DNA of 48,345 nucleotides from Catellatospora coxensis (GTDB lineage: Bacteria; Actinomycetota; Actinomycetes; Mycobacteriales; Micromonosporaceae). The position numbers and the translations under genes were made by a program. Every line of letters starts with the position of its first letter. The stretch's first letter is position 1. The DNA lies in contig NZ_BONI01000073.1 of the NCBI RefSeq assembly GCF_016862635.1, positions 1 to 48,345 on the forward strand, in the 5' to 3' direction. The notes under the pieces are model-generated. The model was not told the DNA's origin. It saw only the letters and a program-made list of their open reading frames with translations, and searched no databases. Positions 3,012-37,870 of the stretch are shown here, in pieces.

Positions 3012-3037
3012 CGCCTCAGCGAAACCGGCTCCCAAGG

Positions 3038-3096
3038 TGATCATGGTGCCAGGGTCGGGACACGCCGAAGAACGCGCCCATAAGGTCATGATCAAC
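3038..3096 (-). repeat. GATCATG element, copy 1 (imperfect inverted repeat)
   Basis: TGATCATG at the left end and CATGATCA at the right end bound a 59-bp element. Read on the minus strand it matches the element at 21091-21147: both share GATCATGA-CTTATGG in the first arm and CGGCGTGTCC in the centre. It occupies part of the 333-bp gap between the membrane protein and the RCC1 gene. I see no clear promoter in the rest of that gap. Confidence 0.65.
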
Positions 3097-3231
3097 AGGT
3101 GTCGCGCGGCGCCGTGCGCGGCCGATCCGGTGGCTGCCGCGTGTCGTGCTGGGCGGTACCTCGGTCGGCGGTACAAAAGGCACGAATCGCGTTGTGCGGA
3201 GTTGGTCCGCGAATGTCCACGGGGGAGTCTC

Positions 3232-5881: not shown

Positions 5882-7135
5882 TCAGGCGTCGGCGCGGCGC
5901 AGGGCGCCGAGCTCGTCCAGCTCGGTCAGCACGCTGTTGAGATGGCCGACCTGCTCGTCGGTATGCAGCGAGGTCAGCTGCACCCGGAAACCGACCTGAC
6001 CCCGGGGCACCAGCGGGTACGCGGCGAGCGTGACGTACACGCCGCGCCGCCAGAGCAGGCGGGCCACGTCGGCCAGGTCGTGGCCGGGTGACAGCGGCAG
6101 CTCGATGACCGGTGTCTGGTCCCGGTTGGGGGTGTGCGCGCCCAGCGACCGCAGGTGCGCGAGCACCCGGGCGGTCAGCCGGTGCAGCGTGTGCCGCAGC
6201 TGCTCGCCGCGGGCCTCGTTGACGTCGAACCCGGCCAGCACCGCCGCCAGCGAGTGCACCGGCGACGGTCCGGAGTAGAGGTAGGGCGGCGCGGCCAGCT
6301 TCAGCCGCTCCTTCAGCGCGGTCGGCACCGCCACGAACGCCAGCAGCGCCGAGTACGCCTTGGAGAACCCGCCGACGAGCACCACGTCGTCGTACGTCTC
6401 CGCGCAGTGCCGCACCACCGCGTTGCCGCGGGTCCCGTACGGCGTGGGCGAGCCGTCGCCGCGTTCGCCGATGACGCCGAAGCCGTGCGCGTCGTCGACG
6501 TAGAGCAGCGCGCCCCACTCGCGGCAGATCTTCGCCAGGGCGGGCAGGTCGGGGATGTTGCCGGTCATGCTGTTCACGCCGTCGAGGCAGACCACCCGGG
6601 GGTGGGCGGTGTCGGCCGAGCGCAGCAGGCGCACCAGCTCGTCGGGGTCGTCGGCGTGCCAGCGGTGCAGCCGCGCGCCGAGCCCGCGGGCGTACGAGCC
6701 GCCGTCGTAGATCGTCTTGTGGGCGCCGGCCTCGACGAACACCGCGCCGCTGCCGGCCAGCGCGGGCAGCACCGACATGTGGATGTGCGTGATCGTGGGG
6801 AGCACCAGGGTGTCGGGCGCGCCGAGCAGCTCGGCGAGCCGTTCCTCGATCTGCGGGTAGAGCCGCGGGCTGCCCAGCAGGCGCGACCAGCCCGGATGGG
6901 TGCCCCAGCGGCGCACCGCGCGCTCGGCGGCGGTGATGATCTCCTCGTCCAGGTCGAAGCCGAGGTAGTTGCAGGACGCGAAGTCGGTCAGCCAGTCGCC
7001 GCCCACCCGGATGCGGCGGCCGTCGACCTCGTCGACGACCGCGTCGTACATCGGGGTCACCGCGCGCAGCCGGTCGAGCTGGTCGACCGACGGCACCTTG
7101 TGCGCATCCGGCAGGTGCGGGGACATCTTCGTCAT
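5882..7135 (-). CDS. Alpha-oxoamine synthase-family PLP enzyme
   Basis: A 417-residue fold-type I PLP enzyme of the family that includes 8-amino-7-oxononanoate synthase, 2-amino-3-ketobutyrate CoA ligase, serine palmitoyltransferase and the CqsA/LqsA autoinducer synthases; these condense an amino acid with an acyl-CoA. The PLP lysine is K259 in GGFSKAYSA, the cofactor-contacting VDDAHGFG is at 213-220, and FASCNYLG at 52-59 is the family N-terminal signature. No biotin genes are nearby, so a role in biotin synthesis is unlikely. It is downstream of the GGDEF-EAL gene and coupled to it through a mini-ORF: its ATG overlaps the mini-ORF stop as ATGA. A signal or lipid precursor as product is an inference from that pairing. 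An alternative start is the ATG at 7126. Confidence 0.85.
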   Translation of the reverse strand: MTKMSPHLPDAHKVPSVDQLDRLRAVTPMYDAVVDEVDGRRIRVGGDWLTDFASCNYLGFDLDEEIITAAERAVRRWGTHPGWSRLLGSPRLYPQIEERLAELLGAPDTLVLPTITHIHMSVLPALAGSGAVFVEAGAHKTIYDGGSYARGLGARLHRWHADDPDELVRLLRSADTAHPRVVCLDGVNSMTGNIPDLPALAKICREWGALLYVDDAHGFGVIGERGDGSPTPYGTRGNAVVRHCAETYDDVVLVGGFSKAYSALLAFVAVPTALKERLKLAAPPYLYSGPSPVHSLAAVLAGFDVNEARGEQLRHTLHRLTARVLAHLRSLGAHTPNRDQTPVIELPLSPGHDLADVARLLWRRGVYVTLAAYPLVPRGQVGFRVQLTSLHTDEQVGHLNSVLTELDELGALRRADA

Positions 7136-7182
7136 GCCCGCGCCCCGCTTCGCTCGGCTCGGGTCCCGACCTGCTCGCTCAT
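7132..7182 (-). CDS. Coupling mini-ORF, MSER family copy A (16 residues)
   Basis: Encodes MSEQVGTRAERSGARA. Its ATG overlaps the TGA of the GGDEF-EAL gene (ATGA at 7182-7179) and its own TGA overlaps the ATG of the oxoamine synthase gene (ATGA at 7135-7132), so ribosomes could pass from gene to gene by reinitiation. It resembles the longer mini-ORFs at 18525 and 36564 in start, position and the GTRA..ERS segment. Whether the peptide itself has a role is unknown. Confidence 0.5.
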   Translation of the reverse strand: MSEQVGTRAERSGARA

Positions 7183-10100
7183 GCGGCCACCTTCTGCTCG
7201 GTGATGAGGTTGATGGCCTGCTCGCCGGTGAGCGGGCGGGCGAACAGGAAGCCCTGGCCGTAGCGGCAGCCGATGCGGGAGAGCAGGTCGCGTTCCACGG
7301 TGCGCTCGATGCCCTCGGCGATCACCTGCAGGCCGAGCGTGTGCGCCAGCCGCACGATGCCGTCGACGAGCGCGGCCTGCTGCGCCGACGAGGCGATGGT
7401 GCTGGTGAACAGCCGGTCGATCTTCACCACGTCCAGCGGCACGTGGCGCAGGTAGCTCAGCGAGGAGTACCCGGTGCCGAAGTCGTCGATGGCCACCCGG
7501 ATGCCGGTGGTGCGCAGCTCGGTGAGGTCCTCCCAGACCCCGTCGTCGTCGCGCAGCAGCAGGCTCTCGGTGATCTCCAGCATCAGCTGGTGCGGCGGCA
7601 GGCCCTCCTCGGCCAGAGTCTCGTGCAGGCTGGCCACGAAGCCCGGGGTGCGGAACTGGCGCGCGGAGACGTTGATGCTGACGTACGGCACCGCGGCCGG
7701 CCCGGCCTCGCGCTGCCACCGCGCGGCGGCGGCCACGGCCTGGTGCAGCACCTCGTTGCCGATCCCGACGATCTGCCCGGACTCCTCGGCCACCTCGATG
7801 AACTCGCCGGGCAGCAGCCGGCCCCGGGTGGGGTGGTTCCAGCGCACCAGCGCCTCGTACCCGGCGGTGACGCCGGTGCGCAGCTCGACGATGGGCTGGA
7901 ACTCGACCGTGAACTCCTTCGCGGCGATCGCCCGGTCCAGCTCGGTGCGCAGCTCCAGCCGTTCCACGATCGCCGTGTGCAAATCGGGCTGGTAGCGCCG
8001 CCACTGGCCCTTGCCCTCGCCCTTGGCGACGTACAGCGCCAGGTCGGCCTGCCGCAGCAGTTCCGGCGCGCTGCGGGCGTCGGCGCTGGTGGCGATGCCG
8101 ATGCTGGCGATGCCGGAGACCAGCCGGTCGTCGATGGTGAACGGCTCGGCCAGCGCCTCGACGATCCGGTCGGCGACGTCGTCGATGGTGGCCGCGTCCG
8201 GGGCGCCCTCGATCAGGGCGGCGAACTCGTCACCGCCGAGCCGCGCCGCCACGTCGTCGGTGCGCAGTACGGCCGCCAGGCGCTGGCCGACCGCGCGCAG
8301 CAGCCGGTCGCCGTGCTCATGGCCGAGGGTGTCGTTGACGACCTTGAAGTCGTCGAGGTCGATGAACAGGACGCCGACGACGCTGCCGTCGGCGTCGGCG
8401 CGGGCGATGGCCTGGCCGATGCGCTCGGCGAAGCGCACCCGGTTCGCCAGCCCGGTGAGCGAGTCGTGGTAGGCCAGGTGGGTCAGCTCGGACTCCATCC
8501 GGCGCTGGTCGGTGACGTCGCGCAGGGTCACCACCAGGCCGTTGACGGTCGTCTCCTCGCGCAGGTCACGGCAGGAGACCTCGGTCTGCACGGCGGTGCC
8601 GTCGGGCCGCAGCACGGTCCAGTCCGCGGTGTCGACCGTCTCGTCCTCCGCCGCCGCCAGCCGGAGCAGGTCCGCGACCAGGGCGTGGTGCGGGCTGTCG
8701 ACCAGTTCCGAGAGGTTCTTGCCGGGTAGCTCCGTGGTGCCGAAGACCGACGACGCGGAGGGGCTGGCGTACCGGATGCGCCCGCCGTCCGGTTCGAGGA
8801 TCAGGATCACGTCCGAGGTGTTGTGCACCAGGGTGCGGAAGTACTGCTCGCTGTTGTGCCTGATGATCTCGTTGCTCAGCATGATGCGCTCGATGGCCAG
8901 CGCCGCCTGCGAGGCGACCAGCTCCATCGGCAGCTGGAGGTAGCTGAGCGAGTTCTCGTCCGAGGAGATCAGCAGCATGCCGATGTGCGGATCGCCGGTG
9001 GGGCGGTCCTCCAGCGCGAGCGGGCAGATCATGGTGATCTCGAAGTCGCCCATCTGGGCCGCGATGTCCGGGGGCAGCGATTTGGTGAAACGCAGCCGGG
9101 AGCCCATCGTCGTGTGCGTCGGGTGGAACAGTTCGGGCGCGGTGCCGTCGTTCATCACCATCGCGACGCGGTAGTCGGAGCCGGGCGGCAGCAGCCGCTC
9201 CGCCGTGCGCTTGAGGGCCCAGGTGACGCCCTCCACCGTGGTCGCGGACATCAGGGCGGCGTTGCTGGCGCGGATGCCGCTGGTGCGCATGGTGTTGCCG
9301 CGATAGCTGTTGACCACGCCGAACAGCCGGATCAGGGCCAGCAGCACCGTGGTCACCACGAACGCGACGATGACCATCGGGTACTTGAGCCGTCCCTGCC
9401 CCACGCCCACCACCAGCACCGCGAGCGGGATGAGCACGAAGAGCGTGAGCAGGGCCTGGTGCAGGGTGCGCATCTCGCGCGGTCTGACCACGCGGGGTGT
9501 GGTGAGGTCGGCCATCGACGGGTGCAGCGCGGCCGCGCCCCAGCACGCGTAGAAGACGATCCAGCCCAGGTCGACCGGGCCGCCGACGGTCCAGTAGCCG
9601 TGCAGCTGGACCAGGCCGTACATGACGTCGGCGGCCAGCAGGCCGACCGCGCCCACGGTCAGCAGCGCCACCGTGGGGCTGAACGGCACCACGGCGATCA
9701 GCCGGCCCACCGTGGCCAGGATCAGGATGTCGCCCAGCGGATAGGCCACCGAGACCAGGCGCTGGCTCATGGTCAGGTCCTGGTTGAGGATCTGCGGGCT
9801 GATCAGGAAGATCCACGAGAGCAGGCCGAGCCCGGCGGTGACGATCAGGGCGTCCAGCGGCACGGTGCGGTCCCGGCTGGCCGCCCCCGCCTTGGACAGG
9901 CCGAGCAGGCCGATGGTGACCGCGGGGTACATCGCCAGGTAGAGCATGTCGGCCGGGGACGGGAACGGGTTCACCTTGCCGAGCACGTCGGTCATGACGT
10001 TGTAGAGCGTGTCGCCGGCGGAGAGCAGGAGCAGCCCGGCGATGATCCACAACCAGGGGGACCAGCGGCGGGGGCGGTAGCGGTACAGCCCGTACCCGAT

Positions 10101-10226
10101 GGCGCCGGCGCTGCTGAGGCCGATCGCGCTCCAGAGCAGGATGTGCCAGCCGGGCAGGGCGTAGAACAGCGCCGCCAGGACGGCCATCCAGGCGCCGTAC
10201 CAGGCCATCACTTTGCGGGCTGACAC
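7179..10226 (-). CDS. Membrane PAS-GGDEF-EAL cyclic-di-GMP enzyme
   Basis: A 1015-residue signalling protein for cyclic-di-GMP synthesis and/or breakdown. Residues about 10-300 hold some ten membrane segments (a MASE-like sensor), about 330-455 a GAF-like region, about 460-580 a PAS domain, then GGDEF and EAL domains. The GGDEF motif is intact (RLGGDEFAAL, near 663) with an RTDD inhibitory I-site five residues before it. The EAL motif is intact (YEALVRW, near 790) with DDFGTGYSSL further on. Both activities are therefore possible, as in the mycobacterial bifunctional enzyme. The start is GTG at 10226, with GGAAGGAGGAG directly upstream; the open frame before it is not coding. An extended -10 TGTCATAAT on the minus strand near 10270 may be its promoter. 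Downstream it is coupled to the mini-ORF and oxoamine synthase. Confidence 0.92.
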   Translation of the reverse strand: MSARKVMAWYGAWMAVLAALFYALPGWHILLWSAIGLSSAGAIGYGLYRYRPRRWSPWLWIIAGLLLLSAGDTLYNVMTDVLGKVNPFPSPADMLYLAMYPAVTIGLLGLSKAGAASRDRTVPLDALIVTAGLGLLSWIFLISPQILNQDLTMSQRLVSVAYPLGDILILATVGRLIAVVPFSPTVALLTVGAVGLLAADVMYGLVQLHGYWTVGGPVDLGWIVFYACWGAAALHPSMADLTTPRVVRPREMRTLHQALLTLFVLIPLAVLVVGVGQGRLKYPMVIVAFVVTTVLLALIRLFGVVNSYRGNTMRTSGIRASNAALMSATTVEGVTWALKRTAERLLPPGSDYRVAMVMNDGTAPELFHPTHTTMGSRLRFTKSLPPDIAAQMGDFEITMICPLALEDRPTGDPHIGMLLISSDENSLSYLQLPMELVASQAALAIERIMLSNEIIRHNSEQYFRTLVHNTSDVILILEPDGGRIRYASPSASSVFGTTELPGKNLSELVDSPHHALVADLLRLAAAEDETVDTADWTVLRPDGTAVQTEVSCRDLREETTVNGLVVTLRDVTDQRRMESELTHLAYHDSLTGLANRVRFAERIGQAIARADADGSVVGVLFIDLDDFKVVNDTLGHEHGDRLLRAVGQRLAAVLRTDDVAARLGGDEFAALIEGAPDAATIDDVADRIVEALAEPFTIDDRLVSGIASIGIATSADARSAPELLRQADLALYVAKGEGKGQWRRYQPDLHTAIVERLELRTELDRAIAAKEFTVEFQPIVELRTGVTAGYEALVRWNHPTRGRLLPGEFIEVAEESGQIVGIGNEVLHQAVAAAARWQREAGPAAVPYVSINVSARQFRTPGFVASLHETLAEEGLPPHQLMLEITESLLLRDDDGVWEDLTELRTTGIRVAIDDFGTGYSSLSYLRHVPLDVVKIDRLFTSTIASSAQQAALVDGIVRLAHTLGLQVIAEGIERTVERDLLSRIGCRYGQGFLFARPLTGEQAINLITEQKVAA

Positions 10227-10328
10227 GCTCCTCCTTCCGGCGGGGCGACATGCGGCCCGAATTAGGTAATTATGACAGCTTTTCGTATACCTTATCGCCT
10301 CGCCGCCCTCCGGCGGCCAGAGATATGG

Positions 10329-10430
10329 CCAGGTCAAACGCCGTCTGCGTAGTTCGTCCCGGCTGCCGAGGGGACGGCTGCCGGGAACGCGAGACCTGGA
10401 CCACAAAGGGTACAAGTCCGGAACACCGGA
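10329..10430 (+). promoter_or_regulatory. Structured 5' leader candidate
   Basis: CCAGGTC 10329-10335 pairs with GACCTGG 10393-10399 around an internal TCCCGGC/GCCGGGA hairpin (10357-10363/10380-10386) with an inner GCCG/CGGC; a TCCGG/CCGGA hairpin follows at 10417-10430. This lies between an AT-rich promoter-like region (10260-10300) and the secreted-protein gene at 10485. Related actinobacterial genes often carry cyclic-di-AMP (ydaO) riboswitches, but the conserved GTCAGCTAACC-type core is not present, so I do not assign the class. Confidence 0.4.
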
Positions 10431-10484
10431 AACGCCCTCTCGGTTGAACCCTCCCGTACGCAATCCCAACGAAGGGACCTTCTC

Positions 10485-11237
10485 GTGGTCAACGTCGACC
10501 TGATGGCACGGCACCTGCCCGCACTCAAGCGCGTGTCCTTCCGGGCAGTACTCGCCGCCACCGGCATGGCAGTGCTCACCGGCATCGCCGGTTCGCCCGC
10601 CAGCGCCAGTCCCGCGGCTGCCACCGCGCCCGAGGCCAAGGCTGTCGCCAAGGCATTCGCGGCGCCTGCCACCGAGGCCGCCGCCGTGCAGGCCAAGGCC
10701 GTCGCTGCGGCTCCCGCCGCGAAGCCGGCGACCAAGGTGCCCGCCGCCAAGAAGGCAGAACAGTCCGCCAAGGCGCCCAGCAGCCAGCAGCTCATGCCGG
10801 CTCCGGTCGCGGAATACCAGGAGACTTTCCAGCCCACCGCCGAGCAGAAGCGCAACGCGGAGGTCATCATCGAGACCGGTCAGAAGATGGGCCTGCCGCC
10901 GCGCGCGTGGGTGATCGCGGTCGCGACCGCCGCCCAGGAGTCGACCCTGCGCAACCTGGGCGACCTGGGTGACATGAACGACCACGACTCGCTGGGCCTG
11001 TTCCAGCAGCGCCCGTCGGCCGGTTGGGGCAGCCCCGCTGAGATCACCGACCCGGTCTACTCCTCGAAGGCCTTCTACAACGGTCTGAAGAACGTCGAGG
11101 GCTACGACAAGATGGCGCTGACCGACGCCGCCCAGACGGTGCAGGTCTCGGCCTTCCCGAACCACTACGCCAAGTGGGAGAAGCTGGCCGCGAACCTGGT
11201 GCTGGCCAAGTACGGCCAGGGCCCGTACGCCGTCTGA
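10485..11237 (+). CDS. Secreted lysozyme/transglycosylase-like cell-wall protein
   Basis: A 250-residue exported protein. Residues 1-42 are a signal peptide (cleavage likely after SPASA), 43-110 an Ala/Lys/Pro-rich wall-spanning linker, and 118-250 a globular domain common at the C-termini of actinobacterial exoproteins. That domain has ATAAQESTLRN (Glu near 148, the position of the catalytic Glu in SLT-type folds), DSLGLFQQRPSAGWG and a closing SAFPNHYAKWE segment. Peptidoglycan lytic activity is inferred, not established for this exact family. The start is GTG at 10485 with GAAGGGA eight bases before it; no ATG serves as well. It has its own structured leader and is followed by a strong hairpin, so it is monocistronic. 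Confidence 0.82.
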   Translation: MVNVDLMARHLPALKRVSFRAVLAATGMAVLTGIAGSPASASPAAATAPEAKAVAKAFAAPATEAAAVQAKAVAAAPAAKPATKVPAAKKAEQSAKAPSSQQLMPAPVAEYQETFQPTAEQKRNAEVIIETGQKMGLPPRAWVIAVATAAQESTLRNLGDLGDMNDHDSLGLFQQRPSAGWGSPAEITDPVYSSKAFYNGLKNVEGYDKMALTDAAQTVQVSAFPNHYAKWEKLAANLVLAKYGQGPYAV

Positions 11238-11262
11238 CATACCGCAGTACCGCAGTAGCCTC

Positions 11263-17649: not shown

Positions 17650-18528
17650 TTGGACCGCTTCGTGTTCCTCACGTTCGACGGCCTGTCCAAGGGGGCGGTG
17701 CTGGCCGCGTTCGCGCTGGCCCTGGTGCTGATCTGGCGGGCCGCGCGCATCGTCAACTTCGCCCAGGGCGCGATGGCGGTGGCCGCGGCGTACGCCGGTT
17801 ACAGCGTCACGACGGCGACCGGCTCGTACTGGCTGGGCTTCGCCGCGGCGCTGCTCGGCGGGCTGCTGATCGGCGTGGTCGTCGAGCGGGCGGTGATGCG
17901 CTTCGTGGACCACGCCTCGCCGCTGTCCGAGGTGATCGTCGCGCTGGGCCTGGTGCTGGTGCTGCAGGCGGTGCTGGGCATGGTGTACGGCAACGAGTTC
18001 CTGCCCGCGGGCACCCCGTTCAGCCGCACCGCGCTGAGCGTCGGCGACGTGCCGCTGCTGTCGCGATACGACCTGTTCGTCTTCGGGGCGGTGCTGCTGG
18101 TGCTGGTCGGGCTGGCGCTGCTGTTCACCCGTACCTCCGTCGGCCTGCGCATGCGGGCCTCGGCCTTCGCCCCCGAGGTGTCGCGGCTGCTCGGCGTCAA
18201 CGTCGGCGGCATGCTGACGCTCGGCTGGGCGCTGGCCTCGGCGGTCGGCGCGCTCGCCGCGCTGCTGGTCATCCCCACGGAGCTGGGCCTGCACCCGCAC
18301 GCCATGGACCTGGTGTTCGTGTCCGCGTTCACCGCCGCGGTGGTCGGCGGACTCGACAGCCCGCCCGGCGCGGTGGTCGGCGGCCTGACCGTCGGCCTGA
18401 TCCTCTCGTACGTCAGCGGCTACCTGGGCAGCGACGTCACCCCGATGGCAGTGCTCGTGCTGCTGCTCGCGGTGCTGCTGGTCCGCCCCGGCGGCCTCTT
18501 CTCCAGCACCGTGGCGAGGCAGGCATGA
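17650..18528 (+). CDS. livH: Branched-chain-type ABC importer permease
   Basis: A 292-residue permease with about eight membrane segments and the LivH features RAARIVNFAQGAMAV near residues 30-44 and SAFTAAVVGGLDSPPGAVVGG near 225-245, the loop that contacts the ATPases. It starts with TTG at 17650, supported by a full AAGGAGG at 17636-17642. Its TGA overlaps the ATG of the mini-ORF that leads into livM. Confidence 0.9.
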   Translation: MDRFVFLTFDGLSKGAVLAAFALALVLIWRAARIVNFAQGAMAVAAAYAGYSVTTATGSYWLGFAAALLGGLLIGVVVERAVMRFVDHASPLSEVIVALGLVLVLQAVLGMVYGNEFLPAGTPFSRTALSVGDVPLLSRYDLFVFGAVLLVLVGLALLFTRTSVGLRMRASAFAPEVSRLLGVNVGGMLTLGWALASAVGALAALLVIPTELGLHPHAMDLVFVSAFTAAVVGGLDSPPGAVVGGLTVGLILSYVSGYLGSDVTPMAVLVLLLAVLLVRPGGLFSSTVARQA

Positions 18529-18599
18529 GCGAGCGGAGCGAGCGAATCATGTCGGCAGGAACTCGTGCCGCCGACGAGCGCAGTGAGGAGAAGGCATGA
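18525..18599 (+). CDS. Coupling mini-ORF, MSER family copy B (24 residues)
   Basis: A 24-codon frame beginning MSERSERIM and ending DERSEEKA. Its ATG overlaps the livH stop (ATGA 18525-18528) and its TGA overlaps the livM ATG (ATGA 18596-18599). The GAGGAGAAG inside its last codons doubles as the Shine-Dalgarno sequence of livM. The same arrangement with similar codons occurs at 36564-36635, between unrelated genes. It may be only a mobile coupling sequence; peptide function is unknown. Confidence 0.6.
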   Translation: MSERSERIMSAGTRAADERSEEKA

Positions 18600-19708
18600 G
18601 CGAGCAGACTGTGACCCCGGCCGCGCCCGCGACGGCCCCCGCTCCGCGCCGGGCCCTGGCCCTGCCGGGTTTCCTGAGCCGGTCGACGCTGCTGCGCCAC
18701 CTGCTGCTCACCGTGCTCGCCGGGGTGGTGCTGTACCTGCTCACCCAGCAGCTCGACCCGTTCCGCAACTTCCAGCTGGCCACCGTCGCCGCCTACCTGT
18801 GCGCGACGGCGGGGCTGACGTTGCTGGTCGGCATGAACGGGCAGCTGTCGCTGGGGCACGGGGCGCTGATGGCCGTCGGGGCGTACACCGTGGCGCTGAC
18901 CCAGAACGCGCTCGCCGACCGGGGAATCACCGGCAACCAGGTGCTGCCGCTGTCGCTGGCGCTGGGGGTGCTGGTCACCATGGCCGCCGGTGCGGTCATC
19001 GGGCTGGCCGCCGCCCGGCTGCGCGGGCCGTACCTGGCCGGCGTGACCCTGGCCGTGGCGATCGCGGTGCCCGCCGCGACGGTCACCTTCGACGAGGTCT
19101 TCAACAGCGAGCAGGGCCTGTCGGTGGCCGTCGAGCCGCCGCCGCTGTCGCTCGGCCGCTACTTCCCGAACGAGCGCTGGCAGGCCTGGGTGGCGCTGTG
19201 CGGCGCGCTGCTGACCATGCTGCTGCTGGCCAATCTGGTGCGCAGCCGGGTCGGGCGCAACCTGCGCGCGGTACGCGACGACGAGGTGGCCGCGCGGCTG
19301 TCCGGCATCCACGTGGCCCGTACCCAGGTGCTGGCGTTCGTGGTGAGCGCGGCCAGCGCCGGGCTCGGCGGCGGGCTGATGGCGCTGCTGGCGCAGAGCG
19401 TCTCGCCGGGCGCGTTCTCGCTGACCCTGTCGCTGTTCCTGCTGATGGCCGTGGTGATCGGCGGCCTGGGCAGCCTGTCGGGCGCGGTGTGGGGAGCGAT
19501 CCTGCTCGTGGCACTGCCCGACCTCACCCACGACAGCACGCTGCTGGTCTCCCTGTCGCCCGCGGCGGCGCAGCGGCTGGAGGGCAACCTCCCGCTGGCC
19601 GTCTTCGGGCTGACCCTGATCGTCGTGATGATCGCCGCCCCGGGCGGTGTGCAGGGCCTGCTGCGCCGGATCGGCGCGAGGGCCCGGCGGCGGGTGCCTG
19701 CCCGCTGA
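18596..19708 (+). CDS. livM: Branched-chain-type ABC importer permease
   Basis: A 370-residue permease with nine or ten membrane segments, a 35-residue polar N-terminus, and the LivM markers NGQLSLGHGALMAVGAYT near residues 80-97 and VVIGGLGSLSGAVWG near 285-299. Its own first residues (MSEQTV) echo the mini-ORF family start. With LivH it forms the transmembrane path; LivK delivers the substrate from outside. Confidence 0.9.
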   Translation: MSEQTVTPAAPATAPAPRRALALPGFLSRSTLLRHLLLTVLAGVVLYLLTQQLDPFRNFQLATVAAYLCATAGLTLLVGMNGQLSLGHGALMAVGAYTVALTQNALADRGITGNQVLPLSLALGVLVTMAAGAVIGLAAARLRGPYLAGVTLAVAIAVPAATVTFDEVFNSEQGLSVAVEPPPLSLGRYFPNERWQAWVALCGALLTMLLLANLVRSRVGRNLRAVRDDEVAARLSGIHVARTQVLAFVVSAASAGLGGGLMALLAQSVSPGAFSLTLSLFLLMAVVIGGLGSLSGAVWGAILLVALPDLTHDSTLLVSLSPAAAQRLEGNLPLAVFGLTLIVVMIAAPGGVQGLLRRIGARARRRVPAR

Positions 19709-36039: not shown

Positions 36040-36567
36040 GTGACGGACGACGACGGGTTCCGCGAGTTCGTGCACGCGCGGCTCGGCAGGCTGTCGCGCA
36101 TCGCGTACCTGCTGACCGGCGACCATCACGCGGCCGAGGACCTGCTGCAGAACGCACTGGTCAAGATCGCGTCACGATGGTCGAAGGTGTCGGCGGGCGG
36201 CGCGCCGGACGCGTACCTGCGCAAGGTGCTCTACCACGAGCACGTGTCGGCCTGGCGGCGCGGCCGCCACCTGCGCGCCGAGTGGCCGACGGCGGAGCCG
36301 CCGGAGGGCGGCGGCGGCCGCGACCTGGCCGCCGACACGGTGCGCCGCCTGCTGCTGGAGCAGGCGCTGGCCAAGCTCACCCGAAAGCAGCGTGCGGTGA
36401 TCGTGCTGCGCTTCGTCGAGGACCTGTCCGAGGCGGACGCAGCCGCGGCCCTCGGCGTATCCGTGGGCACGGTCAAGAGCCAGACGTCGTACGCCCTCAA
36501 GAAGCTGCGCGAACAGGCCCCGGAACTGCACGTGCTGGTCAGGGAGCCGAAGGAGGCATGGGCATGA
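36040..36567 (+). CDS. SigE-family ECF RNA polymerase sigma factor
   Basis: A 175-residue sigma factor with region 2 (FVHARLGRLSRIAYLLTGDHHAAEDLLQ, the core-binding and -10 part) at about 9-50 and region 4 (TRKQRAVIVLRFVEDLSEAD then GVSVGTVKSQTSYALKKLRE) at about 112-155. The LLTGD...AEDLLQ spelling is that of the actinobacterial SigE/SCO-type ECF group. GTG at 36040 has GGGAGG six bases upstream. Its stop overlaps the mini-ORF leading into a membrane protein, so the latter is probably its anti-sigma factor. Confidence 0.88.
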   Translation: MTDDDGFREFVHARLGRLSRIAYLLTGDHHAAEDLLQNALVKIASRWSKVSAGGAPDAYLRKVLYHEHVSAWRRGRHLRAEWPTAEPPEGGGGRDLAADTVRRLLLEQALAKLTRKQRAVIVLRFVEDLSEADAAAALGVSVGTVKSQTSYALKKLREQAPELHVLVREPKEAWA

Positions 36568-36635
36568 GCGAGCACAGCGAGCGGATCTGGTGGCCCGGCC
36601 ATGCCGTCGACGAGCGGAGCGAGGAGAGGGCATGA
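36564..36635 (+). CDS. Coupling mini-ORF, MSER family copy C (23 residues)
   Basis: A 23-codon frame beginning MSEHSERIWW and ending DERSEERA. ATGA overlaps join it to the sigma factor stop (36564-36567) and to the next start (36632-36635); GAGGAGAGG within it acts as ribosome binding site for the following gene. It aligns with copy B at both ends, with a different centre. Confidence 0.6.
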   Translation: MSEHSERIWWPGHAVDERSEERA

Positions 36636-37870
36636 GCGACCTGAACGAACTGCTGGCCGACATCGGGGACCGCGCACGGATCTACGACGTCACCGAGCGG
36701 GCCCTGGTGCTGGGCCGCAGGCGGCGCAACACCCGCCGCCTCGCGGGCGTGGGCGGGATCGCCGCCGTGGTCGCATTGTCGATCACCGGTGCCCTGACGC
36801 TGCCCACCCGCCCGGAGTCCGGCCCGGCCGTGCCGCCCTCGCCGACCCCGTCGCCGCCGGCGGTCGCCCTGACCGCTTGCACCGCCGCCGAACTGCCGAT
36901 GCCGGCGGGCCTGCGCGGGGACGCGTACCACGAGTTCGGCGCCGATCCCAGCGGCCGCTTTCAGGCGACGCGTGCCGCCGACGGCAAGGGCCGCGAGTTC
37001 CTGGTCGTCTGGGAGGACGGCAGCCCCAGGGCGGTCAGCGAATGGCCGAAGGGGGCCGTCCGGATCAATGCGGTCAGCTCGACGGGGACCGTGCTGCTGC
37101 GGGCCGGGCAGGCGGAGCTGGAGTCGTGGGTCGTGCGTCGTGACGGCACCACGACACGGCTGCTCGGTCCGGGCGCGGTCGGCCTCGGCATCAACTCCGC
37201 CGGCGTCATCGTGGGTCAGCTCCGGGGCAACCTGCTGATGACCTGGCCGAACGACACCGCGAAACCGGTGCCGCTGCCCGTGCCTGACGGCATGACCGCG
37301 GGCGACCCCGCGGCGATAGCCGACGACGGCACCGTCGTCACACAGCTGTTCGAGGGCCGGTTCGAGCAGACGCCGTTCCGGCGGTCCGGCCCCGGCTGGG
37401 CGTACGTCTGGCAGCCCGGCGGCTCGCCGCAGCGGCTCGCGCTGCCCGAGGCCATCGACGGCGTCAAGGTGAAGTCGTCGCGGGTCTTCCAGGTCGCCGA
37501 CGGCTGGGCCTCGGGTGTGCTGATCACCGGGGAGGGCGAGGACATCCGCCCCTATCCGGCCCGCTGGCGGCTCGGCAGCGGTGAGGTCGAGTGGCTGGCC
37601 GTGCCCGATCGGGGGGAGGGCACCGTCAATCCTCAGGGTTGGGCGGTGCTCCGAGCGGCGGACGACACGACGACCCTGGTCCGCGGTGACGTGGCGATCC
37701 GGCTGACGGGCCTGCCGGGTCACACGCCACGTCCGTCGAACGTCACGGGGACCGCCCCGCTGATGGTGGGCGTGGTCGGCCCGGATGCCCGCGTCCTGTC
37801 CGGGCTCCAGGTGAGCGAGGGCGAGAACCGCGACCTCGTGTATCGGAGACTGCGCTGGACCTGTCACTGA
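36632..37870 (+). CDS. Putative anti-sigma membrane protein
   Basis: A 412-residue protein with a cytoplasmic N-terminus of about 40 residues, one membrane helix (GVGGIAAVVALSITGALTL, about 38-57), a Pro/Ser linker (PSPTPSPP) and a large outer domain of beta-rich repeats with NG/DG turns (INAVSSTGTVLL, INSAGVIVG, IADDGTVV), like a propeller. Position directly after a SigE-type sigma gene and this topology fit the anti-sigma or sensor proteins that accompany such sigmas in actinobacteria, though no zinc-binding anti-sigma motif is seen. Function is inferred from context. Confidence 0.72.
   Translation: MSDLNELLADIGDRARIYDVTERALVLGRRRRNTRRLAGVGGIAAVVALSITGALTLPTRPESGPAVPPSPTPSPPAVALTACTAAELPMPAGLRGDAYHEFGADPSGRFQATRAADGKGREFLVVWEDGSPRAVSEWPKGAVRINAVSSTGTVLLRAGQAELESWVVRRDGTTTRLLGPGAVGLGINSAGVIVGQLRGNLLMTWPNDTAKPVPLPVPDGMTAGDPAAIADDGTVVTQLFEGRFEQTPFRRSGPGWAYVWQPGGSPQRLALPEAIDGVKVKSSRVFQVADGWASGVLITGEGEDIRPYPARWRLGSGEVEWLAVPDRGEGTVNPQGWAVLRAADDTTTLVRGDVAIRLTGLPGHTPRPSNVTGTAPLMVGVVGPDARVLSGLQVSEGENRDLVYRRLRWTCH

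Follow-up and report, generated by a model that had tools for sequence, protein, structure and literature searches.

Two permease genes of Catellatospora coxensis, both assigned by Pfam to BPD_transp_2 and both on the forward strand (17650..18528 and 18596..19708), are joined by a 24-codon mini-ORF, MSERSERIMSAGTRAADERSEEKA, whose start overlaps the stop of the first gene and whose stop overlaps the start of the second. This element copy (18525..18599, forward strand) measures 71 nt from DTGA to DTGA, a length of the form 3n+2, and inspection places GAGGAGA, Shine-Dalgarno-like for the downstream permease, inside the mini-ORF at 18585..18591 (forward strand). A predicted fold, together with covariation in the family, pairs an internal stem arm, CGTGCC (18564..18569, forward strand), with the right arm GGCATG (18593..18598, forward strand) that holds the start codon of the downstream gene, one of the pairs being G-U. 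In the window, by which I mean the whole stretch of 48,345 nt analyzed here, there are three such mini-ORF sites, each running from an ATGA over an upstream stop to an ATGA over the next start. The second (36564..36635, forward strand; 68 nt from DTGA to DTGA; a 23-codon mini-ORF, MSEHSERIWWPGHAVDERSEERA) follows a gene for an ECF-type sigma factor (36040..36567, forward strand; Pfam) and precedes a gene (36632..37870, forward strand) that is anti-sigma-like by position only and has no Pfam match at E 0.001; on the same evidence as before, its internal arm CATGCC (36600..36605, forward strand) is predicted to pair with GGCATG (36629..36634, forward strand), which again includes the downstream start codon, and its GAGGAGA, Shine-Dalgarno-like for the downstream gene by inspection, stands at 36621..36627 (forward strand). 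The third, on the minus strand (7132..7182), is a 16-codon mini-ORF, MSEQVGTRAERSGARA, that overlaps through ATGA both a PAS-GGDEF-EAL gene upstream (7179..11240, minus strand; Pfam; the longest frame, its start not fixed) and a class I/II aminotransferase gene downstream (5882..7135, minus strand; Pfam). The window holds two full copies of one element and one copy that by inspection is shortened and decayed. A sequence-only reading of this DNA had already picked out the three sites with their double overlaps, the GAGGAG within the last codons of the mini-ORF and the lack of any relation among the host genes, and all of this was confirmed.

The window alone would not have made the case, since a short core, GAGCGNAGCGAGG, searched with no more than 2 mismatches, matched it 26 times against a shuffle mean of 19.7, a count reached by 6 of 100 shuffles, so that the significance of the element rests on the whole genome; an Rfam search of the window gave 0 matches at the gathering score. 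The nucleotide pattern proposed by the sequence-only reading matched the 9.35 Mb C. coxensis genome 32 times and its reversed control 0 times; one of the 32 matches (C68:31839) bore no resemblance to the element. The 3' core, allowed up to 3 mismatches, gave 134 genome matches versus 12 in the control. There is a repeat family in this genome, and it is not chance. A profile was built from 32 pattern matches, among them L081, which is no element, and applied to the fetched loci and the window; at a threshold of at least 28 bits it counted at least 76 copies at 62 junctions, with 49 single copies, 12 pairs and one triple; this is a lower limit because the loci, namely the flanks of the pattern matches and of 3' core matches with up to 2 mismatches (contigs C113, C126, C129, C138 and C163 left out), were picked through the 3' core or the proposed pattern.

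Genes at these loci were called with a codon model of my own rather than a standard gene finder. Both neighbors lie on the same strand as the element at 59 of the 59 junctions where both are visible, against a base rate of 280 same-strand pairs among 394 adjacent pairs in the same loci, element junctions included. At 60 of 61 junctions the next gene starts at the 3' DTGA, a gene here being any frame that spans 60 codons or more or continues past the edge of the locus, versus 41 of 59 junctions where the 5' DTGA is the stop of the upstream frame; in 17 of the remaining 18, the end of the preceding gene falls somewhere between 1 nt past and 112 nt before the 5' DTGA. Because the first copy has no upstream-stop overlap at these 18 junctions, coupling to the upstream gene is not universal, and the difference between the two ends makes the downstream start codon the fixed point of placement, as has likewise been described for MIRU. 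The dispersed, frame-preserving link with double DTGA overlaps that had been proposed from three sites was borne out, with copies at gene junctions in all 59 testable cases and further copies in the genome. Copies stand in tandem at 13 of the 62 junctions. Contigs C7, C83, C102, C129 and C163 have matches at their ends, as do loci L049, L090 and L099, and contigs that begin or end at or beside copies suggest VNTR-like tandem arrays that the assembly did not resolve.

What the copies have in common beyond their position is a frame. A pooled set, to which C. coxensis contributed 70 copies, six more genomes of its genus 68, loci of named Catellatospora 38 and Plantactinospora 2, comprised 178 distinct complete copies (15 matches without a DTGA were dropped; some copies are orthologous, with 145 distinct 14-nt left flanks), and 172 of the 178 keep an open 3n+2 frame from DTGA to DTGA, the six that break the rule being L016, L033, L039, L071, L082 and L156. 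The open lengths range from 59 to 104 nt. For C. coxensis alone, a first scoring gave an open frame of 2 mod 3 to 67 of 70 complete copies, with 6 matches lacking a DTGA. In the 169 copies first scored as 2 mod 3, frame 0 is always free of stops, and frame +2 is interrupted by a stop in 73. At L055 (minus strand, about 3026-3167) a pair of copies has lost its middle DTGA, and the outer DTGA to DTGA distance of 137 nt, again 2 mod 3, still forms one open frame. In other genera and families, 39 of 45 copies at 39 loci were open as scored (3 were dropped, and the set contains at least one duplicate, L200 and L229); of the six remaining copies, five finish with ATGAGTGA and come to 2 mod 3 when counted to the first ATGA, and the sixth, L220, breaks the rule.

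The sequence-only reading had also entertained a peptide gene family, and a functional small peptide with a preference for gene junctions would account for the fact that MSERSERI...DERSEE can be recognized in most C. coxensis copies. Against it, homologous DNA is read in other frames, both across genera (MSERSERI, MSERQRAN, MSELASSS, MSERASGS) and within Catellatospora, where L088:6236 reads MSELASES beside MSELRERI copies and L047 reads MSERQRAN, and shifts of frame at one end of a copy are compensated elsewhere. Since the 3n+2 rule stays intact through all of this, it is the open frame that is kept and not the peptide, and membership in a peptide family was rejected on that ground; third codon positions are also among the conserved nucleotides (by inspection of column counts), linkers at one and the same junction vary between species, and I consider this explanation very improbable. 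A variant of the form ATGAGCGAGCTTGCGAGCGAATCA...GGAGGAGA occurs in other genera (genomes G142, G016 and G104), some examples reading MSELASES, and its listed lengths to GAGGAGA are 1 mod 3, likewise in Catellatospora.

The same counts bear on the plainest explanation, that these are low-complexity, GAGCG-rich spacer repeats whose frame is a by-product of codon bias. The core is indeed GC-rich and repetitive, but a spacer of this kind is hardly credible when the reversed pattern has no matches, 59 of 59 junctions are same-strand, stops are avoided in frame 0 and not in frame +2, and a stem covaries (see below); the junction and frame counts already contradict it. Frequent frame breaks, copies away from gene junctions and a lack of further copies were what the sequence-only reading had named as evidence against itself, and the counts came out the other way each time (172/178, 59/59 and 76 copies).

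The second conserved property, which that reading missed, is a stem on the downstream start codon. RNAalifold, run on 40 copies, predicted that the internal CATGCC pairs with GGCATG at the right end. Over 164 distinct right-hand windows this register pairs 88.8% of cells, versus 19 to 50% for 15 slid registers, and at positions -3, -2, -1 and 0, where 0 is the first base of the downstream start codon, pairing exceeded 2000 of 2000 shuffles; pairs at +1 to +3 are not assessable for covariation because the right-side bases there never vary. Matched variants of the two arms include GCGATG/CATCGC, GGCGTG/CACGCC, TGCATG/CATGCA, GCCATG/CATGGC, AGCATG/CATGCT and, in Plantactinospora, GTCATG/CGTGAC. 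The internal hexamer covaries with the right end of the element, down to the first base of the start codon that follows. All six bases pair in 88 of the 178 copies, G-U allowed, the inner five in 51 more, and fewer in 39; position -32 is paired in only 108 of the 164 windows, and the isolated fold is modest, with a mean pairing probability of 0.39 and a value above 0.5 in 38% of the 178 copies.

Loci mostly from one other genus, g4, presumably Micromonospora to judge by how many species it contains, tell the same story at 55 distinct sites, with 48, 41, 55 and 48 Watson-Crick pairs at -3, -2, -1 and 0, each position beyond 3000 of 3000 shuffles. All 72 of 72 copies at these loci are open, a count that is not independent evidence for the frame, since the loci were partly chosen at 80 nt (50 of the 84 came from a fixed-length search for 80-nt copies). 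The shared descent of copies within subfamilies makes such shuffle tests too easy to beat; with sites clustered by left flank, the signal was nonetheless reached in 0 of 5000 shuffles, except at -1 in Catellatospora (74 of 5000). The left flank was considered as the partner of the internal arm and rejected: the left and right hexamers are unlike in 97 copies, and of these the right one is the better partner in 81 and the left one in 5, with 11 ties, so that in this discordant set the stem follows the right end. I infer that the covarying stem is a coupling hairpin.

Comparison between species shows filled and empty sites. The permease junction consists of a single DTGA in 8 of 11 species and carries 71 extra nt, open as the 24-codon unit, in C. 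coxensis and genome G005; in genome G004 (L105), a frame-broken copy reads through and forms an N-terminal extension of the permease (MSERTGSAGTETADERAGEGVSEQ...). At this junction the element was presumably gained rather than lost. The EAL/aminotransferase junction contains, in 8 of 11 species, one or two mini-ORFs that are coupled through DTGA, measure 7 to 34 codons and differ in sequence, and the mini-ORF is absent in 3 of 11. The sigma junction has a single ATGA in the best homologs of genomes G003 and G010, a weak test of orthology, which is itself uncertain, because homologs in other species are 33-52% identical.

Such comparisons also speak to whether the host might have made the unit as a coupling cassette that tunes the stoichiometry of two genes and is kept by regulatory selection. 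The retention of a DTGA-coupled mini-ORF at the EAL/aminotransferase junction in 8 of 11 species, despite changes in its sequence, is what such selection would look like, but no common function links the genes that flank the three window sites, the mini-ORF is missing from the permease junction in 8 of 11 species and tandem copies are common (13 of 62 junctions), which leaves a host-made cassette quite improbable. With unrelated hosts, empty permease junctions and tandem copies, a tolerated parasite fits better, and the element would by this reasoning be a parasite rather than a regulator.

The proposed pattern is present in 8 of 11 Catellatospora genomes. Genomes G007, G008 and G009 of the same genus are without matches, and close relatives of theirs have dozens. 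A stricter pattern identified named records from Catellatospora methionotrophica, C. vulcania, C. sichuanensis and C. paridis and from Plantactinospora alkalitolerans. The original pattern also matches 115 of 300 genomes of the family, a figure from which I draw no range, since most of the listed matches outside the genus are unlike the element. Relatives of the element do occur in five other families of the order, among matches examined from six families, and the profile reached E 0.01 or better in at least 154 of 200 genomes of the order, with 24 candidates scored per genome and many of the matches weak and possibly due to chance. At E 1e-5 and with stricter filters, only the genome itself and one other of the same order matched among 198 genomes of the phylum, and strong copies look confined to the order at the search sensitivity used.

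Supply et al. are said to have described the MIRU, or mycobacterial interspersed repetitive units, in 1997. A recent review presents MIRUs as short repeats of mycobacteria, apparently mobile, which insert at start codons and whose internal ORF is coupled to the target gene at -4 nt (PMC12548453), and with this precedent the claim that the Catellatospora element belongs to an undescribed functional class was wrong in substance. Like a MIRU, the element is found at DTGA start sites between same-strand genes and mainly in operons (59/59 junctions; 60/61 with the 3' DTGA), consists of a small ORF whose ends overlap its neighbors (172/178 open and 2 mod 3; upstream overlap in 41/59), and occurs as many dispersed copies, in tandem at some loci (76 copies, 62 junctions). 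A MIRU core searched in 121 genomes of one family was found in 4, all of one genus. One site, L241, immediately precedes the gene of a RegX3 protein (2oqr being its best PDB match), the position expected of the senX3-regX3 MIRU, and this copy resembles the element in being a 53-nt DTGA to DTGA unit, 2 mod 3, with the common core GAGCGNAGCGA...GAGGAG; unlike the element, it has no stem at a distance of 31-34 nt from its right end, where 1 to 4 of 6 positions pair. Of the six core matches, two others, L237 and L238 in genus g51, fall within open stretches of 130 and 588 codons and not at junctions. The element profile found nothing significant in six mycobacterial loci, its best score (8.9 bits, E 0.033, at L236) falling on the MIRU core, and so membership in the MIRU by sequence failed. 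I therefore call the element MIRU-like, as it works like a MIRU without a significant profile match to those six loci; the two may share ancestry.

The reading I favor, and believe to be quite probable, is that of a MIRU-like short mobile repeat that inserts at gene start codons of the form DTGA, mostly inside operons, is transparent to ribosomes and carries a start-codon hairpin. The repeat would be mobile, and its insertion should be transparent because the unit is 3n+2 long, open from DTGA to DTGA and brings its own Shine-Dalgarno-like site. A ribosome that ends the upstream gene would restart on the mini-ORF by way of the old ribosome binding site of the target gene, stop at the second DTGA and restart on the target gene itself; at a filled site, as L101 beside L103 suggests, the mini-ORF would take over the former ribosome binding site and start position of the target gene, to which the element would supply a new GAGGAG. 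Termination-reinitiation through the mini-ORF is thus the likeliest working that I can infer. The modeled hairpin would hold the downstream start codon in its stem and the Shine-Dalgarno-like GAGGAG in its loop, where it probably blocks independent starts until translation of the mini-ORF opens it, which would give it a role in coupling.

Several known systems offer partial parallels. Rickettsia palindromic elements are likewise short and repeated and, as this element does, keep to the host reading frame when they insert; they lie inside genes, whereas the Catellatospora element is at start codons and has an ORF of its own, although the frameshifted G004 copy fused to the N-terminus of its permease resembles them. 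IS200/IS605 and REP elements use a sequence of their own interior to pair with the site of cleavage or the target, and the Catellatospora element is possibly alike in this. Translational couplers and bicistronic leader ORFs, mentioned alongside MIRU in the same review (PMC12548453), similarly couple a short ORF containing a Shine-Dalgarno-like site to the next start, but these are single leaders, designed or native, and the element is a repeated and apparently mobile unit.

Another reading takes the internal hexamer for a DNA or RNA insertion guide recognizing NNDTG at gene starts, which would match both the right end and the pre-existing left flank. In the left flanks of 100 single sites, C does occupy -1 in 85 cases and G occupies -2 in 62, versus 14/39 and 6/39 in native DTGA overlaps, a preference that shrinks against 187 DTGA starts of any kind (C in 113, G in 83), genes behind elements included. 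A left -1 base able to pair with the internal arm is present at 100 of 114 unclustered sites of the Catellatospora set (expected 92.4; 1 of 5000 shuffles) and at 43 of 55 sites in g4 (expected 34.3; 0 of 3000 shuffles), where the first start-codon base pairs in 51 of 55 (expected 27.2; 0 of 3000 shuffles). Clustering the sites gives Fisher values of 0.00025 at -1 in g4 and 0.0003 pooled, but clustered Catellatospora alone is not significant (555 of 5000 at -1 and 1232 of 5000 at the first start-codon base), there is no signal at -3, and the g4 loci are those of which 50 in 84 were picked through the fixed-length 80-nt search. Where the left and right sides of g4-type sites disagree, the internal arm follows the right at -1 in 12 of 12 and the left at the first start-codon base in 4 of 5; among GTG right ends of the Catellatospora set, by contrast, 7 of 8 have a C opposite. 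Duplication of an NNDTGA target followed by selection on the RNA stem could produce the same pattern, and I regard a guide as unlikely and the match of the internal arm to the insertion target, as read from flanking bases, as a lead, not a result. A ribosome-transparent mobile element in which one hexamer would guide insertion to NNDTG and then serve as an arm of the coupling hairpin, with subfamilies co-inheriting guide and target (GCATGA, GCGTGA, CGATGA), is also unlikely.

In the literature searched, with most subscription journals beyond reach, no paper was recognized as describing such elements outside mycobacteria, and three points are new as far as these searches show: the range of hosts, a conservation that does not depend on the frame, and a stem that covaries on the start codon. 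As for the sequence-only reading as a whole, its coupling cassette stands in substance, and its peptide family and its undescribed class do not. The many copies in Catellatospora and what is presumably Micromonospora, the differences in presence and absence between species and the covarying stem make it possible to ask, by comparison and with simple reporters, how MIRUs spread and why operons tolerate them. Genomes G007, G008 and G009, which have no match to the pattern, provide a natural contrast for finding the mobilizing function when set beside the rich genomes of C. coxensis, G002, G004 and G005, and the family itself amounts to a naturally occurring collection of leader ORFs through which ribosomes may reach the downstream gene.
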